64,000 bases of DNA from Candidatus Poribacteria bacterium (GTDB lineage Bacteria; Poribacteria; WGA-4E; WGA-3G). The notes beneath the pieces are model-generated. The model ran no database searches, was not told the DNA's origin, and saw nothing but the letters and a program-made list of their open reading frames with translations. The translations under genes and the position numbers were made by a program. The stretch spans positions 1-64,000 of the forward strand of contig JAJEEK010000111.1 of NCBI GenBank assembly GCA_022821065.1, read 5' to 3'. Numbering within the stretch: position 1 is the first letter of the stretch; each line of letters begins with the position of its first letter. This document shows positions 27,237-35,754 of the stretch, one piece after another.

Positions 27237-28844
27237 CTACTCCTCCTCAATAACAATCCGCTGATTCACCGCTACATCCGTCAGCGTCTGCACAATCCCG
27301 CTCGGCCACTGGATGACAAGCTCATCTACTTGTGTATGATGTGCAAGCCCGAATTCGACATCGAGACTGCTCTGTGAGAGGTAGCTATCACCCGCTGTTA
27401 CCTGCTGCACCTGATGAAGATCACCTGCGCGCACTTTAACGACCGCACCGACACCGTCCCGATTGCTCACCGTCCCGACTGTACGGATCTGAAGCCAATG
27501 CTGCTGATTACCGCCATCGTTTCGGAGCAAACTCGGTTTCGCACCGCTGTTAACAACGAGTATATCCAGATCGCCATCGGCATCGTAATCCGCGACGGCG
27601 ACCCCTCTACCGACACCATAAGCGTCCGACTCGCGGAGACCAACAGCCTCGGAAACATCTGTGAAAGTGCCGTCCCCGTTGTTCTCCAGAAAGACATCTG
27701 CCTGTCCGTGTGCTTCCCATGATGCCGGATCGATATGTCCTGCGGAGAAGAAAATGTCCAGATCACCATCGTTATCCGCATCAAAAAACACTGTTCCCCA
27801 GCACGTTTTACCCAACCCGGATGCGAAGACCCCACTCTGCGCCGATACATCCCTAAAAGTGCCATCCGCGTTGTTGCTATAGAGGACGTTGTTTTCGTCC
27901 AACCAGTTCGTTATGAATAGATCGAAGTCACCGTCGTTATCATAGTCTCCCCAAGCAACCCCCATACCGCTTCGGATGTCGCCAGTCCGGCTCCTTGCAT
28001 CCGGACGGTTCGTATTCGTGAAAGTTAACTCGCCGTCGTTCCGATAGAGGATATTCTGGTCGGTATCATTAGCGAGATAGAGGTCAAGATCACCGTCAGC
28101 GTCGTAATCCGCCGTACCGACACCGAGCGTCAAATGGAACCCGCCGTTCACCTTGGCAGCATTCGTGATGTTGATGAATCCGCCGTCTCCTTTGTTTAGA
28201 TAGAGAATGTTCGCCTGTCCGAAGAAATCGTAAGGAAAAAAGACTTCATCGCCTTGCGGAACTTTGCTGTATTCGATATAGTTACCGATGTAGAGGTCGA
28301 GATAGCCGTCCGCATCGTAATCACCCCATGCGATGCCAGCACCGAAACCGTCGTCACCGATCCCGCCTGCCCCAGACGAGAAGCGTTTGAAGATCCCGTT
28401 CCCGTTATTCCGATAGAAGACATTTGCCTTATAGTTCGTGACATAGAGGTCAGCATCGCTGTCGTTATCGTAATCCGCGAAGGCACAACCCATTCCCCAA
28501 CCGGTATCGCCGACAGCCGCAGCATCCGTTACATCGCTGAAAGTGCCGTCGCCGTTGTTCCGATAAAGCGCGTTCTTCGGTAACACAGCATCTGGTGCCG
28601 GGCGCACTAAAGCACTGTTGACGATATAGAGGTCCAACCTACCGTCGTTATCGTAGTCTCGCCACGCTACACCAGAACCGACAAGTGCCGGCACGACACG
28701 GTGATCAATCCCACCAACGTGCGTAAAGTCGATACCTGATTGTTCAGTGACATCCACAAACCGAATATCGGCTGCGGAGCTGCTTGTGCCTGATATAAGT
28801 GTAAAAATAAAAACCGAAATCACATTCCCCAATCTATTCTGCAT
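27237..28844 (-). CDS. Secreted CRTAC1/ASPIC-UnbV beta-propeller protein
   Basis: The protein has 535 residues with a signal peptide (1-24). Seven or more FG-GAP/VCBS units follow, each with a calcium loop of type D-x-D-x-D-G-x-x-D (for example WRDYDNDGRLDLYIVN and ADYDNDSDADLYVTN). The C-terminal ~85 residues are the ASPIC/UnbV domain (NRDGVGAVVKVRAGDLHQVQ, ending VDELVIQWPSG). Such proteins are exported, calcium-stabilised and often adhesive; the function is not known. The start has GGAGAGG upstream. It is a single-gene unit. Confidence 0.88.
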   Translation of the reverse strand: MQNRLGNVISVFIFTLISGTSSSAADIRFVDVTEQSGIDFTHVGGIDHRVVPALVGSGVAWRDYDNDGRLDLYIVNSALVRPAPDAVLPKNALYRNNGDGTFSDVTDAAAVGDTGWGMGCAFADYDNDSDADLYVTNYKANVFYRNNGNGIFKRFSSGAGGIGDDGFGAGIAWGDYDADGYLDLYIGNYIEYSKVPQGDEVFFPYDFFGQANILYLNKGDGGFINITNAAKVNGGFHLTLGVGTADYDADGDLDLYLANDTDQNILYRNDGELTFTNTNRPDARSRTGDIRSGMGVAWGDYDNDGDFDLFITNWLDENNVLYSNNADGTFRDVSAQSGVFASGLGKTCWGTVFFDADNDGDLDIFFSAGHIDPASWEAHGQADVFLENNGDGTFTDVSEAVGLRESDAYGVGRGVAVADYDADGDLDILVVNSGAKPSLLRNDGGNQQHWLQIRTVGTVSNRDGVGAVVKVRAGDLHQVQQVTAGDSYLSQSSLDVEFGLAHHTQVDELVIQWPSGIVQTLTDVAVNQRIVIEEE

Positions 28845-29653: not shown

Positions 29654-29998
29654 ATGCAAGATCCCGAAAAACTGAAAAAGCGCTGGGAGTTCCAACGCAC
29701 CTATCAGAACGGGCGTAAGTATTGGAACCCCAACTTTGTGATATACGTGCTAAATACCGACTTTAAGGGCCTCAGATTGGGAATAACCGTCAGCAAAAAG
29801 ACCGGAAAAAGTGTCCAGAGGAATCGAGTCAAAAGACTCATCCGTGAATCGTTTCGGCAATTACGTCCAAAAATAAAAATAGGATACGATGTCGTCGTCG
29901 TCGGTAGGACACCCGCATCTCGGCTCACGTGTCAGGAAGCGCGGAACACATTGGCACACCTGTTCCAGAAAGCCGGTATCTTAAACGCAAAGGATTGA
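29654..29998 (+). CDS. rnpA: Ribonuclease P protein component
   Basis: The 114-residue basic cofactor of the RNase P ribozyme, for 5' maturation of tRNA. LKKRWEFQRTYQNGRKY is the N-terminal motif and GKSVQRNRVKRLIRESFR is the RNR motif in the conserved helix; the ending VVVVGR is also typical. It opens the rnpA-yidD-yidC-jag-mnmE block. rpmH (L34) and dnaA, normally just upstream, are not present; an HNH gene stands there instead. No ribosome-binding site is near; coupling to the HNH gene is likely. Confidence 0.92.
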   Translation: MQDPEKLKKRWEFQRTYQNGRKYWNPNFVIYVLNTDFKGLRLGITVSKKTGKSVQRNRVKRLIRESFRQLRPKIKIGYDVVVVGRTPASRLTCQEARNTLAHLFQKAGILNAKD

Positions 29999-30187
29999 TA
30001 AATCAAACGCGCACACGAAAATAAAAACGCTGTTAGTTTTTACACGCTTTCACACGGTTTTGGGGAACCAAACCCAGTAGGAGTCGTCTCGAACCGCTCC
30101 AGTACTTTAGTGCAAACCTCGCATATCCCAAAACCGCTTTTTATTTACATCTACGGATAATAGCGGATATCGACAGAGGACAGAGTC

Positions 30188-30472
30188 GTGCTACATTCTA
30201 AGCAGCATCACGCAGACATAAAACAGCAGGAAAATCAGCCAGCAGACGATCCGCCACGCACAACAACGATGTTACTCACGTATCCGATCCGCATTTATAA
30301 ACGCTTTATCTCACCGTTGTTTCCTCCCTCGTGCCGTTTCTACCCGTCATGTTCGCAATACGCAATTGAGGCTTTAGAACGGTACGGGATGGTTAAAGGA
30401 TGCTGGCTAACAATTAAACGACTCGCAAAATGCCACCCTTATCATCCAGGGGGTTTCGATCCGCTCAAATAG
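30188..30472 (+). CDS. yidD: Membrane protein insertion efficiency factor YidD
   Basis: The protein has 94 residues. The core [31 protein letters not shown] with its cysteines and the ending [11 protein letters not shown] are diagnostic of YidD, which assists YidC-dependent membrane insertion. A 27-residue hydrophilic N-terminal extension precedes the core when GTG 30188 is used; ATG 30269 gives the usual length but has no ribosome-binding site. The 190-base gap before it holds a degenerate GTAGGAG repeat near 30071. Confidence 0.9.
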
Positions 30473-30512
30473 CGGACATCAAAAACATAAGAAATGAGGA
30501 GCACCTATTTCA

Positions 30513-32369
30513 ATGGGCGCACGCTACATTCTCGCATTGGTTCTAATGATTGTTGTAATGGTCGCATGGAGCCTAATCTACGGCAACCGATTCGCACCAG
30601 AACCCGATGAATCTGCAACGACCGAACAGACACCCGCAACATCAGACACAGACGAAGCAACGATCGAACCGACAACACAAGCAACATCCGATGGAGCCAC
30701 TGCACCCATCAGTCCCGATCTCTTTAAACAGGTTGAGGAGAGTCCAGATGATTCGATGGTCAACGTCCAAACCGATAACTATAGTATCGTCTTTAACGAA
30801 AAACTCGGAATCGCGAAGCAGTGGCGACTCAAACGTTTTCCAGATCGATCGGATCCAACAGGGACACATTTGAACCTGATTCCGGAGAACGCACTCAGCT
30901 GCCTCGCACTGAAGTTCGGAAGCGCGCAACTCGCACTTGATGCACTCCGCGCAACTTGGAAAGCGGATAAATCCGAAATCAACATCACAGGTGGACAGAA
31001 CACGGAGACACTCACTTTTACCACAACGATTGGTGACAAACTATGGGTCGCAAAGCAGTTCGTCTTCCACCCGAACACCTATTTCGTTGATATGACCGTC
31101 ACTTTCCAGAACGTCTCCGACGAACCGATCCTTATGGGCAGCAACGAACCCGCTAACGGTTATGAACTTCAGTGGGGACGCGGTATCAACGCCGACCTCC
31201 TCCCTTATGAAAAAAGGAGCGGTAAACGGGGACGACACGGCAAGGAAGGCGCGAAAGTCTATATCCACGACAGCAAACCGCAACGCGAAATCAAACCCGA
31301 GAGAGCTTTAGAGACTGTCCTCTGGGCAGGGATGGATAGCCAGTACTTCAGCGCACTGATGATTCCTGACGAGCAGATCGCAGCAACATATCGGCTAACA
31401 GAGACGCCACAAGCAAACACAGCATCCGATATCACCGTCATTGCACCGACAGAAACTGCATCACTCGTCGTACCCGGTTTTTATTTGCAACCGCAACAGA
31501 AAGATACGGATGTCTTTCGGCTCTATGTCGGTCCGAAGGACGATACCATCCTAAAAACGATAAAAGCGCCCAATACACAAGAAACGGCAGAAAACACTAT
31601 AAACCTGTCCAAAATTATCGACTTCGGGTTCTTCTCACCCATCGCATGGGGAATGCTCTGGGTGTTCAAAGGCGTTCACAATATCTTCGGGAACTACGGC
31701 ATCTCGATTATCTTATTGACGGCGCTCGTGAAAATCTTCTCTTACCCCTTCACGCATAAGGCGCATAAGTCGATGAAGAAGATGCAAAAACTCCAGCCGC
31801 AGCTCCTCGAATTGAAGGAGAAGTATAGGGACGATCCGCAGAAACTCAACCGCGCAACGATGCGCGTCTATAAAGAGAACGGTGTTAATCCACTTGGCGG
31901 TTGCATTCCGTGGCTACCGCAAATCCCGATCTTCTGGGCACTCTTTGCACTTTTGGGAAGCGCGGTCGAGCTACGCGGCGCACCTTTCCTGCTTTGGATT
32001 GATGACCTCTCAGCACCCGATACGCTCATCGAACTGCCTTTCACAATTCCGTTAATTATCACACAGATAGACGCGATACGCCTACTGCCGATTATCAACG
32101 GTTTGACAACTTGGCTCCAACAAAAATTCGTCGGAAATATGGCACCAGCGACCGACAACATGCAAGTAAAATTGATGCAATTCATGCCCCTCATCTTCAT
32201 CTTTATCTTCTATAACTGGGCGTCCGGGTTTGTACTGTATTGGTTATGCAACAACGTATTCACCGTCGCGCAACAGTATCTACAAAACCGATACGCAAAC
32301 GATGAAGACGAGATTGTAGTGGTCGATGGAAAAAAACGGAATAACGCCAAACAAAAACGGAATTCATAA
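30513..32369 (+). CDS. yidC: Membrane protein insertase YidC
   Basis: The protein has 618 residues and inserts inner-membrane proteins. An N-terminal helix (residues 3-24) is followed by an acidic Thr/Gln-rich linker and a periplasmic beta-domain (residues ~80-360), as in Gram-negative YidC. The conserved insertase core (residues ~365-590) has WGMLWVFKGVHNIFGNYGISII, KMQKLQPQLLELKEKY and the last helices, with the hydrophilic-groove arginine expected near the first core helix. GAGGAG precedes the start. Part of the conserved rnpA to mnmE unit. Confidence 0.95.
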   Translation: MGARYILALVLMIVVMVAWSLIYGNRFAPEPDESATTEQTPATSDTDEATIEPTTQATSDGATAPISPDLFKQVEESPDDSMVNVQTDNYSIVFNEKLGIAKQWRLKRFPDRSDPTGTHLNLIPENALSCLALKFGSAQLALDALRATWKADKSEINITGGQNTETLTFTTTIGDKLWVAKQFVFHPNTYFVDMTVTFQNVSDEPILMGSNEPANGYELQWGRGINADLLPYEKRSGKRGRHGKEGAKVYIHDSKPQREIKPERALETVLWAGMDSQYFSALMIPDEQIAATYRLTETPQANTASDITVIAPTETASLVVPGFYLQPQQKDTDVFRLYVGPKDDTILKTIKAPNTQETAENTINLSKIIDFGFFSPIAWGMLWVFKGVHNIFGNYGISIILLTALVKIFSYPFTHKAHKSMKKMQKLQPQLLELKEKYRDDPQKLNRATMRVYKENGVNPLGGCIPWLPQIPIFWALFALLGSAVELRGAPFLLWIDDLSAPDTLIELPFTIPLIITQIDAIRLLPIINGLTTWLQQKFVGNMAPATDNMQVKLMQFMPLIFIFIFYNWASGFVLYWLCNNVFTVAQQYLQNRYANDEDEIVVVDGKKRNNAKQKRNS

Positions 32370-32456
32370 TCTAATTGACAGCGCAAAGCCTCCACGCAGC
32401 CTTGCGCCGCACCCAGCGACTTCGCTGCCCGAAACGTTTAAAGGAGGATACCATCT

Positions 32457-33080
32457 GTGCAACACTATATTGAAACTGAAGGCGACACAGTGGAGGAAGC
32501 AATCGAAAACGCACTCAGCGAACTTGAGGCAACACGTGAGCAGGTTACAATCGATATCATCAGTGAGCCAACAAAAGGGATATTGAACTTCGGCGCGAAA
32601 CCAGCGAAAATCCGAGCAACGCTCAAACAAGATGTCTCCGCCGCACCTGAGACAATCCTAAAGGAAATTCTCTCCCGCATGGGGGTTGACGCAAAAGTTA
32701 AAATGGACTACGTTGACGGAAGCACGCACCTGAATATCCTTACCGACAGCCCCGCTTTGCTTATTGGGAAACATGGACAGACCCTTGACGCTATTGAACG
32801 TATTCTTAATTGTATCGTCAATAAAGTTTCGCTCGCGAAAAAACGGGTTTTTGTTGATACCGAAGGCTACCGAGAACGGCGAGAGGAACGGCTCATTGAA
32901 ATGGCGAATCAAGTCGCAGATAAGGTCAGATACACCGGCAGGGATGTTGTACTCGCCCCCATGTCCGCCCGCGACCGACGCATCATCCATGTTACGCTGA
33001 AAGCGGATGAGATCGTCTCTACTTACAGCCAAGGTGAAGGTGATATGCGCCGCGTCGTCATTACAACGCAACGACTGTAG
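32457..33080 (+). CDS. jag: Jag/KhpB RNA-binding protein
   Basis: The protein has 207 residues. Residues 1-50 are the Jag_N domain (TVEEAIENALSEL, GILNFGAKPAKI), residues ~70-145 a KH domain with PALLIGKHGQTLDAI (GxxG loop), and residues ~145-207 an R3H domain with the R-x3-H pair in DRRIIH. It binds RNA and, with KhpA in other bacteria, affects cell wall synthesis and division. Start is GTG 32457 with AAAGGAGG upstream. mnmE begins nine bases after its stop. Confidence 0.92.
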   Translation: MQHYIETEGDTVEEAIENALSELEATREQVTIDIISEPTKGILNFGAKPAKIRATLKQDVSAAPETILKEILSRMGVDAKVKMDYVDGSTHLNILTDSPALLIGKHGQTLDAIERILNCIVNKVSLAKKRVFVDTEGYRERREERLIEMANQVADKVRYTGRDVVLAPMSARDRRIIHVTLKADEIVSTYSQGEGDMRRVVITTQRL

Positions 33081-33088
33081 TTAATAAA

Positions 33089-34477
33089 ATGAAATTCCAC
33101 GACACGATCGCAGCGATCGCAACCGCACGCGGTGAAGCCGGTATCGGCATTGTCCGAGTCAGCGGATCCCTCGCAATACCAATCGCTGCTGAATTGTTCC
33201 AATCGCCGCGCAAAGTATCACCGACAGAACTGCCAACGCATACCCTTACGTACGGACACGTCGTTGATACATCGGCATCCGAGGCAGTTATTGACGAAGT
33301 ACTGCTCGGTGTCATGCGCGCGCCGAAAACCTACACCGGTGAGGACATTGTCGAGTTCAACTGCCACGGCGGAATTGTACCGCTCACGGCTGTTTTAGAC
33401 CTTGTGGTGAAAAGTGGCGCACGGATAGCGGAACCCGGCGAATTTACAAAACGCGCCTTTCTAAACGGAAGACTTGACCTCGCGCAAGCCGAAGCCGTAG
33501 CGGAACTCATCGCATCGAAAACCGATCTGAGCCGAAAAATCGCTATTCAGGCACTCGCCGGAAAACTCTCGGATACCGTCAACAATCTCAATGATCGGCT
33601 CGCAGCGCTCCTCGCAGAAGTTGAGGCATCTATCGACTTTCCAGAAGAAGACCTTGATTTCATGAAGGTAGAAACACAACGTGAAACCGCACGCTCAGTT
33701 CAGAACGACTTAACGACACTCCTCGAAACTGCTGCCGATGGTCGGCTTATCACGGAAGGCGTTAACGTCGCTATACTCGGTAAACCGAACGTCGGAAAAT
33801 CGAGCCTGTTGAACGCACTCGTCGGAACGACACGCGCAATCGTCACGGACATCCCGGGGACAACGCGCGATACAATCGAAGAGGAAATTAATATCGGTGG
33901 GATCCCCCTGAAACTCATTGATACCGCCGGAATCCGATCCACAGATGATGTCGTAGAGCAACAAGGGGTCGAGCGCAGCAAAGCCGTGCTTGATAGAGCA
34001 GAGCTACTACTGCTAATGTTCGACGCATCGCTACCGCTCAACGATGCCGATCACGAACTTTTACAGGTAGCGCAATCGTCGAAGGCGATTCTTATTCTAA
34101 ATAAAGTTGACCTACCGGTTGTGACATCGTCAACAGTACTCCTCACACACTGTCCGAAAAAACGAATCGTCGAGACGGTCATCCCCGACAGCAAAGGACT
34201 CGACAAGTTGAAAGCGGATGTCTGTGAGGTACTACTCGGTGGAGAATTCGTCATCGGTGAATCGCCGATTGTGACAAACGCACGCCACCAAGAGGCACTC
34301 CGACGCGCGAACGAAGCACTTGATTATGTCATAGAGAGCCTCGAAAACGGTATGCCACCGGAACTCGTCGCTGTTGATTTGCGTATTAGCCTTGATGGAC
34401 TCGGAGATATTGTCGGTAAAACGACAACTGAAGATATTCTTGATAGAATCTTCGCTCAATTTTGCGTCGGAAAATAA
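33089..34477 (+). CDS. mnmE: tRNA uridine-5-carboxymethylaminomethyl modification GTPase MnmE
   Basis: The 462-residue partner of MnmG modifies wobble U34 of tRNAs. The N-terminal tetrahydrofolate-binding domain begins DTIAAIATARGEAGIGIVRVSG. The G domain has GKPNVGKSSLLNAL (G1), TTRDTIEE (G2), DTAG (G3) and NKVD (G4). The C-terminus ends in CVGK, carrying the conserved cysteine of the C-[IV]-G-K motif. Last member of the rnpA block; mnmG is not next to it. Confidence 0.95.
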   Translation: MKFHDTIAAIATARGEAGIGIVRVSGSLAIPIAAELFQSPRKVSPTELPTHTLTYGHVVDTSASEAVIDEVLLGVMRAPKTYTGEDIVEFNCHGGIVPLTAVLDLVVKSGARIAEPGEFTKRAFLNGRLDLAQAEAVAELIASKTDLSRKIAIQALAGKLSDTVNNLNDRLAALLAEVEASIDFPEEDLDFMKVETQRETARSVQNDLTTLLETAADGRLITEGVNVAILGKPNVGKSSLLNALVGTTRAIVTDIPGTTRDTIEEEINIGGIPLKLIDTAGIRSTDDVVEQQGVERSKAVLDRAELLLLMFDASLPLNDADHELLQVAQSSKAILILNKVDLPVVTSSTVLLTHCPKKRIVETVIPDSKGLDKLKADVCEVLLGGEFVIGESPIVTNARHQEALRRANEALDYVIESLENGMPPELVAVDLRISLDGLGDIVGKTTTEDILDRIFAQFCVGK

Positions 34478-34778: not shown

Positions 34779-34845
34779 GGTCCGAAACCTACGCACTGAT
34801 TGCTGACAGCAATTATCTACTCAAAACGAATCTAAGGAGAAAACC

Positions 34846-35754
34846 ATGTTTAATTCTGTTTCTCGCCGCACCTCACTCGGTGTCTTACTGTTGACGGTAG
34901 TCACAGTGTTGGCAACCGCCGCACACGCGGAAATCCAGTGGAGCGACTCAGTTGAAGAAAGTCTATCGAAAGCCGCAGAGACCGGAAAACCGATAATGAT
35001 GGATTTCTATACCGATTGGTGAGGGTTCTGTGATCGGCTGGATGCCGAAACGTTTACAGATGCCCGCATTATTGAGCTCGCTGAGAAGTTTATTCCGGTT
35101 AAAGTGAACCCAGAGATTACAGAACGTCCGATCAATGAGGAGACGCGAAGCCGATACGGGGTCGCAGCTTTTCCAGCAGTGCTGTTTCTCAGTCCTGATG
35201 GCGGTCTCATCCAAAAAGCTTCAGGATTCATGCTACCTGAACAGTTTTCACCGATTATGGAGTCTGCGCTGAAAAAAGAGGAAATCTTCATGGCGCAGCT
35301 CGCTGAACTCGAGAAAATGCCAGAAGATGCCAAACTTAACGCACAAGTCGCAATTACCTATTTTCAACGCATGCAGATTGAAAAGGGACTACCACTCAGT
35401 GAGAAAGCCATTAAACTCGACCCTAAAAATAGTACAGAGTTGATTCCAAACTTGCACAACCAACTTGGACTCGCTTATGCCACAAAGGGGGAAACCGCCG
35501 GAGACGCTAAAGAAATGGCGACGTACTACGAAAGGGCGATCACTCACTTCAAAACTGTGGTAGACAAATACCCTGACAGCGACCTTAATCAACCCGCCCA
35601 GTATTATCTCGGTGTTACGTATGCGCTCAGCTCGGATTATGACAGTGCTATCTCAGTCCTTGAGAAGTTAGTTCATCATACCCGCGACGAGAATATCAAA
35701 CAGAACGCCGAAGCGATGTTAACACGAGTAAAAGGGTTAGCAGGAACCAATTAA
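34846..35754 (+). CDS. Exported thioredoxin-like selenoprotein (UxxC) with TPR tail
   Basis: The protein has 302 residues when TGA at 35020-35022 is read as selenocysteine. A signal peptide covers residues 1-28 (TAAHA). KPIMMDFYTDW leads into U59-G-F-C62, exactly where thioredoxin-like proteins have CxxC, then DRLDAETFTD and the cis-proline region YGVAAFPAVLFLSPDG. The same frame continues without a break through a TPR-type helical tail (residues ~150-302) to TAA at 35754. AAGGAGA precedes the ATG at 34846. Alternatives are a nonsense mutation or sequencing error, but the position, the frame and the hairpin after TGA favour recoding. It would act in the periplasm as a reductase or isomerase. 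Confidence 0.85.
35027..35060 (+). promoter_or_regulatory. bacterial SECIS-like hairpin
   Basis: Directly after the TGA, UCUGU (35027-35031) pairs with ACAGA (35056-35060) and TCGGC (35034-35038) with GCCGA (35044-35048). The apical loop TGGAT has G at its second position, 18 bases after the TGA. This fits the general form of bacterial SECIS elements bound by SelB. Confidence 0.7.

Follow-up and report, generated by a model that had tools for sequence, protein, structure and literature searches.

The Interrupted Reading Frame

The window analyzed here is a stretch of 64,000 nt from the forward strand of contig JAJEEK010000111.1 of a sponge-associated Candidatus Poribacteria (assembly GCA_022821065.1; 5.1 Mb in 124 contigs, 90% complete), and one of its reading frames raises the question of whether an in-frame TGA ends a gene or is read as selenocysteine (Sec). 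The frame, on the forward strand at 34846–35754, runs from an ATG at 34846 through 58 codons to a TGA at 35020–35022, then through 243 open codons to a TAA at 35752–35754. The TGA, in the context Y-T-D-W-TGA-G-F-C, is the only in-frame stop inside these 303 codons. A ribosome binding site (AGGAG, 34835–34839) lies 6 nt upstream of the ATG, followed by a signal peptide (MFNSVSRRTSLGVLLLTVVTVLATAAHA, 34846–34929) recognized by eye, with cleavage expected after AHA. The thioredoxin domain (34936–35256) exceeds the curated cut-off of 27 bits for both Thioredoxin_7 and Thioredoxin_2 (50.7 and 47.8 bits), and TPR-type helical repeats occupy 35323–35733. If the TGA is translated, the product is a predicted exported protein of 302 residues with Sec59 as the first redox residue of a UxxC motif (UGFC) and Cys62 (35029–35031), invariant in the alignment of orthologues, as the resolving residue. 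The original prediction, made from the letters of the sequence, had placed a single TGA in a clean frame at the first cysteine of a redox motif, with ribosome binding site and signal peptide upstream and thioredoxin and TPR parts downstream; direct reading, the domain profiles and a structural model bear this out. It had also anticipated that standard gene calling would miss the gene or start at 35104, and a standard-code ORF listing indeed gives only the fragment 35104–35754, from a GTG.

The closest named relatives, with proteins 86% identical, are Candidatus Poribacteria MAGs. Upstream is a block of genes named by sequence resemblance as rnpA-yidD-yidC-jag-mnmE (29654–34477, forward strand), and in most relatives with flanks read the gene is likewise found 3′ of this block. 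Further upstream, the minus strand at 27237–28844 encodes an exported protein of large size in which FG-GAP/VCBS-like D.D.DGD..L motifs recur.

Conservation of the TGA Codon

In a single genome, one stop in a clean frame is just what would be expected from a recent nonsense mutation or an error in sequencing. Orthologues were however found in 72 of the 73 genomes of the order examined, with TGA in all 72 and in 11 of 11 genera. In the 67 genomes where the codon position was read directly it is always TGA, in the same place, down to 34% identity. Because these genomes are independent, a sequencing error is excluded, including the misreading of a TGT or TGC that had been a concern at the outset. 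The part 3′ of the TGA also evolves as coding sequence: in a comparison of four close relatives, it shows a bias at third codon positions and contains no additional stop. Together these observations refute the idea of an error or a pseudogene, for which the remaining probability is negligible.

No Cys orthologue was found among the genomes of the order examined (67 with the codon read directly); Cys forms are confined to other phyla and to distant Poribacteria paralogues (L160, L163). Alignment with Cys homologues, one of the checks proposed originally, shows the TGA in the column of the first CxxC cysteine. The residues separating Sec from Cys vary among orthologues. Stop-free matches at E < 1e-20 are either pieces that do not span codon 59 or a distant, 28% identical protein in one genome (G070). 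In a phylogenetic tree, 23 sequences from the order form one clade (support 100/98), and about four Sec/Cys changes are required overall. Several genomes of one genus (e.g., G049, G050, G052, G054, and G056) have extra copies of the gene, also with TGA. The only genome of the order without the gene, G039, retains SelA and a Sec-type SelD; after its mnmE, in the place of the selenoprotein gene, is a gene for a VIT/VWA-like protein (L200).

Other UxxC thioredoxin-TPR copies occur in Poribacteria (L113, L120, L127; e.g., SUDFC and SUYWC), all with TGA and some away from the mnmE locus. Sec forms of related thioredoxins were also seen outside the order, in MAG Bin_57_9, in a genome of the same class, and in a genome beyond the phylum (L129, L089, L090).

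The SECIS Hairpin

Just downstream of the TGA is a stem-loop, CGGC-UGGAU-GCCG (35035–35047, forward strand; stem 35035–35038/35044–35047, loop 35039–35043), with its first loop G 18 nt 3′ of the TGA. A published model for bacterial SECIS elements calls for a loop of 3–9 nt, a stem of at least 4 bp, a G at loop position 1 or 2, 16–37 nt from the UGA, and a minimum free energy (MFE) of −7.5 kcal/mol or lower (PMC13188914). The present element agrees with this model on all four published constraints, with a 5-nt loop (UGGAU), a 4-bp stem (five with a U-A pair), a UGA-to-loop distance of 16 nt, and −8.2 to −16.8 kcal/mol: the 19-nt hairpin has an MFE of −8.2 kcal/mol, equaled by none of 200 shuffles, and the 45-nt element one of −16.8 kcal/mol, equaled by one of 200. 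The window has 138 TGA codons flanked on both sides by 30 or more open codons, and only that at 35020–35022 has such a hairpin after it.

The geometry is identical in every orthologue read, with the stem at nt 16–19/25–28 counted from the U of the UGA and the loop UGGAU, or UGGAC in two. Stem pairing across orthologues of the thioredoxin gene reaches 98% at the true register and no more than 59% at any of 12 shifted ones. Synonymous sites in codons 64–68, which make up stem and loop, are nearly frozen and form the most constrained 6-codon block of 250 in the gene (Arg CGG 60/61, Leu CTG 67/67, Asp GAT 65/67, Ala GCC 61/67, Glu GAA 50/50). In six genomes CAGC/GCUG replaces CGGC/GCCG, so that an A-U pair takes the place of G-C and the stem is kept at the cost of Arg64 becoming Gln; this change may have arisen just once, since the three of these genomes included in the tree branch next to one another, joined only at weakly supported forks. 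A possible lower helix (35028–35033/35054–35059, forward strand) can form, with 87.5% pairing across 12 sequences, but is weakly supported, covariation in this small 12-sequence test not rising above that of shuffles. An Rfam scan of the window gave no match over threshold. From folding, the published constraints and the frozen synonymous sites together, the hairpin fits a bacterial SECIS element as originally proposed.

These results also bear on whether there might be two products here, with a short peptide ending at the TGA and a second protein starting at GTG 35104, either as separate genes or with the TGA as a regulatory stop responding to selenium supply. The ORF at 35104–35754 is what gene callers give, and because readthrough of UGA is rarely complete, a truncated product probably forms to some extent. 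A split at this point, however, would divide the thioredoxin fold downstream of the strand with the active site, Cys homologues are continuous through it, and the RNA-level constraint lies directly 3′ of the TGA. An arrangement of two products is thus highly improbable as an explanation for the locus.

Selenocysteine Machinery

A search for sel genes, also suggested by the original prediction, found a complete set in the genome. The tRNA-Sec, with anticodon TCA (UCA), scores 76.4 bits, over the cut-off, and SelB (362 bits) is encoded on the same strand of the same contig, at a distance of about 180 nt. SelA is full-length (523 bits). SelD (362 bits; L018:1501–2424, genome contig C4) has an in-frame TGA of its own and reads K-C-A-G-U-A-S-K. 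Across the 84 genomes searched, SelD is over the cut-off in 71, nearly all with one internal TGA. When the two genes were compared by fixed geometry, the SelD SECIS stem was found at the same positions as that of the thioredoxin gene in most genomes, with loops CGGGU or CGGGG; the sliding-geometry control is less clean for SelD (0.86 paired, 0.77 at +3), so its support rests also on the classical Sec position of its TGA. Nine MAGs with the Sec thioredoxin have no full-length SelA match (G004, G013, G031, G035, G041, G050, G052, G057, and G072), most likely because of assembly gaps; in G035, fragments of SelA lie at the ends of contigs.

An open frame and a conserved TGA would, by themselves, fit equally well with a TGA read as a standard amino acid through a code change or a suppressor. 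Several observations speak for Sec instead: TGA is otherwise an ordinary stop here, closing 10 of the window's 43 long ORFs that do not overlap, and in these a further stop follows within 26 codons; the TGA in question coincides exactly with a catalytic Cys; the Sec machinery is complete and a SECIS element is present; and SelD has TGA in the classical Sec position. Insertion of a standard amino acid is accordingly rated even less probable than two separate products. Since no genome of the order in which the gene was found lacks either the TGA or the RNA signal, the gene very probably encodes a genuine Sec-containing thioredoxin-TPR selenoprotein (estimated probability about 0.96, from sequence data).

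Protein Fold and Possible Function

An AlphaFold2 model built from a 28-sequence alignment (pLDDT 91.6, with low confidence in the signal peptide, as is usual) has a thioredoxin fold followed by helical repeats. The top Foldseek matches are YbbN, DsbD-gamma and DsbH, with TM-scores for the DsbD-gamma comparison of 0.7–0.8 over the thioredoxin domain, and sequence searches agree in pointing to DsbD-gamma and disulfide isomerases. YbbN/CnoX, a thioredoxin-TPR chaperone, has the same order of domains and is the top fold match with the best E-value, but its whole-chain TMq is just 0.27, indicating that the relative placement of the domains differs, and the present protein adds a signal peptide and Sec. 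The DsbD C-terminal (gamma) domain has a profile match at 1e-14, and the C-terminal part of TsoB, a rhodanese/DsbD-like selenoprotein, one at 7e-20. Neither family includes the present protein, which scores 54.1 bits against a cut-off of 330 for DsbD (NF001419) and 70.6 bits, in the C-terminal part only, against a whole-protein cut-off of 805 for TsoB (NF045694). Unlike both, it has no membrane domain and no rhodanese, and is a soluble, predicted exported domain with TPRs.

Among known selenoproteins, Sec-containing thioredoxins (PF00085) likewise have UxxC in a thioredoxin fold, but the present protein is of the Thioredoxin_7/Thioredoxin_2 branch and predicted to be exported. The cataloged Thiol:disulfide interchange protein selenoproteins (PF13098; PMC13188914) share Thioredoxin_2, UxxC and an in-frame UGA with SECIS. 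By the catalog's description, which mentions no TPR fusion for them, they are set apart from the present family, an order-wide Poribacteria clade without a Cys orthologue.

We infer export, a reducing role and a partnership with DsbD. The ribosome meets the UGA at codon 59, where SelB-GTP-Sec-tRNA bound to the SECIS would insert Sec to give W-U-G-F-C. The signal peptide would then direct secretion, and the protein could work as a reducing periplasmic thiol-disulfide oxidoreductase, with Sec59 attacking a substrate disulfide or a sulfenate/peroxide and Cys62 resolving the intermediate. A membrane DsbD-type protein may re-reduce it, a candidate being the 624-aa DsbD_TM protein present in the genome, and the TPR domain might bind a substrate or partner. 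A reducing, DsbD-linked role is somewhat favored, though less surely than the presence of Sec. Even with Sec accepted, the protein might instead act as an oxidant/isomerase or a peroxidase, since thioredoxin-fold selenoproteins include peroxidases and isomerases and the two positions separating Sec from Cys are variable here; the nearest profiles and folds, the DsbD C-terminal domain and thioredoxin, are however both reducing, and these other activities seem unlikely.

Significance for Poribacteria

UxxC thioredoxin-like selenoproteins are already a known class. A literature search on selenoproteins in Poribacteria found none described, and as far as the literature searched goes, the thioredoxin-TPR architecture of the present protein, the order-wide absence of a Cys form, and a link to SelA/SelB enrichment in sponge symbionts are new. 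A highly expressed thioredoxin reported from Poribacteria (PMC5087111) could not be tied to the present gene.

With this gene, an uncultivated phylum gains a well-supported selenoprotein family that has probably been overlooked. Gene callers using the standard code are expected to truncate it, and Poribacteria gene models at this locus need checking and correction. Sec is apparently obligate across one Poribacteria order, and its persistence without reversion to Cys over 72 genomes makes this family well suited to studying why Sec is kept. Slaby et al. (2017; PMC5649159) detected SelA and SelB genes in the majority of bins from sponge symbionts, whereas most of the relatives lacked them; the Poribacteria selenoprotein would give this enriched machinery a concrete client. 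Tentatively, an obligate Sec thioredoxin-TPR family might have been fixed at the base of the order and never have gone back to Cys, its periplasmic role being the main reason the symbionts keep SelA and SelB. If this is true, the selenium supply of the sponge would shape the redox biology of its symbionts.
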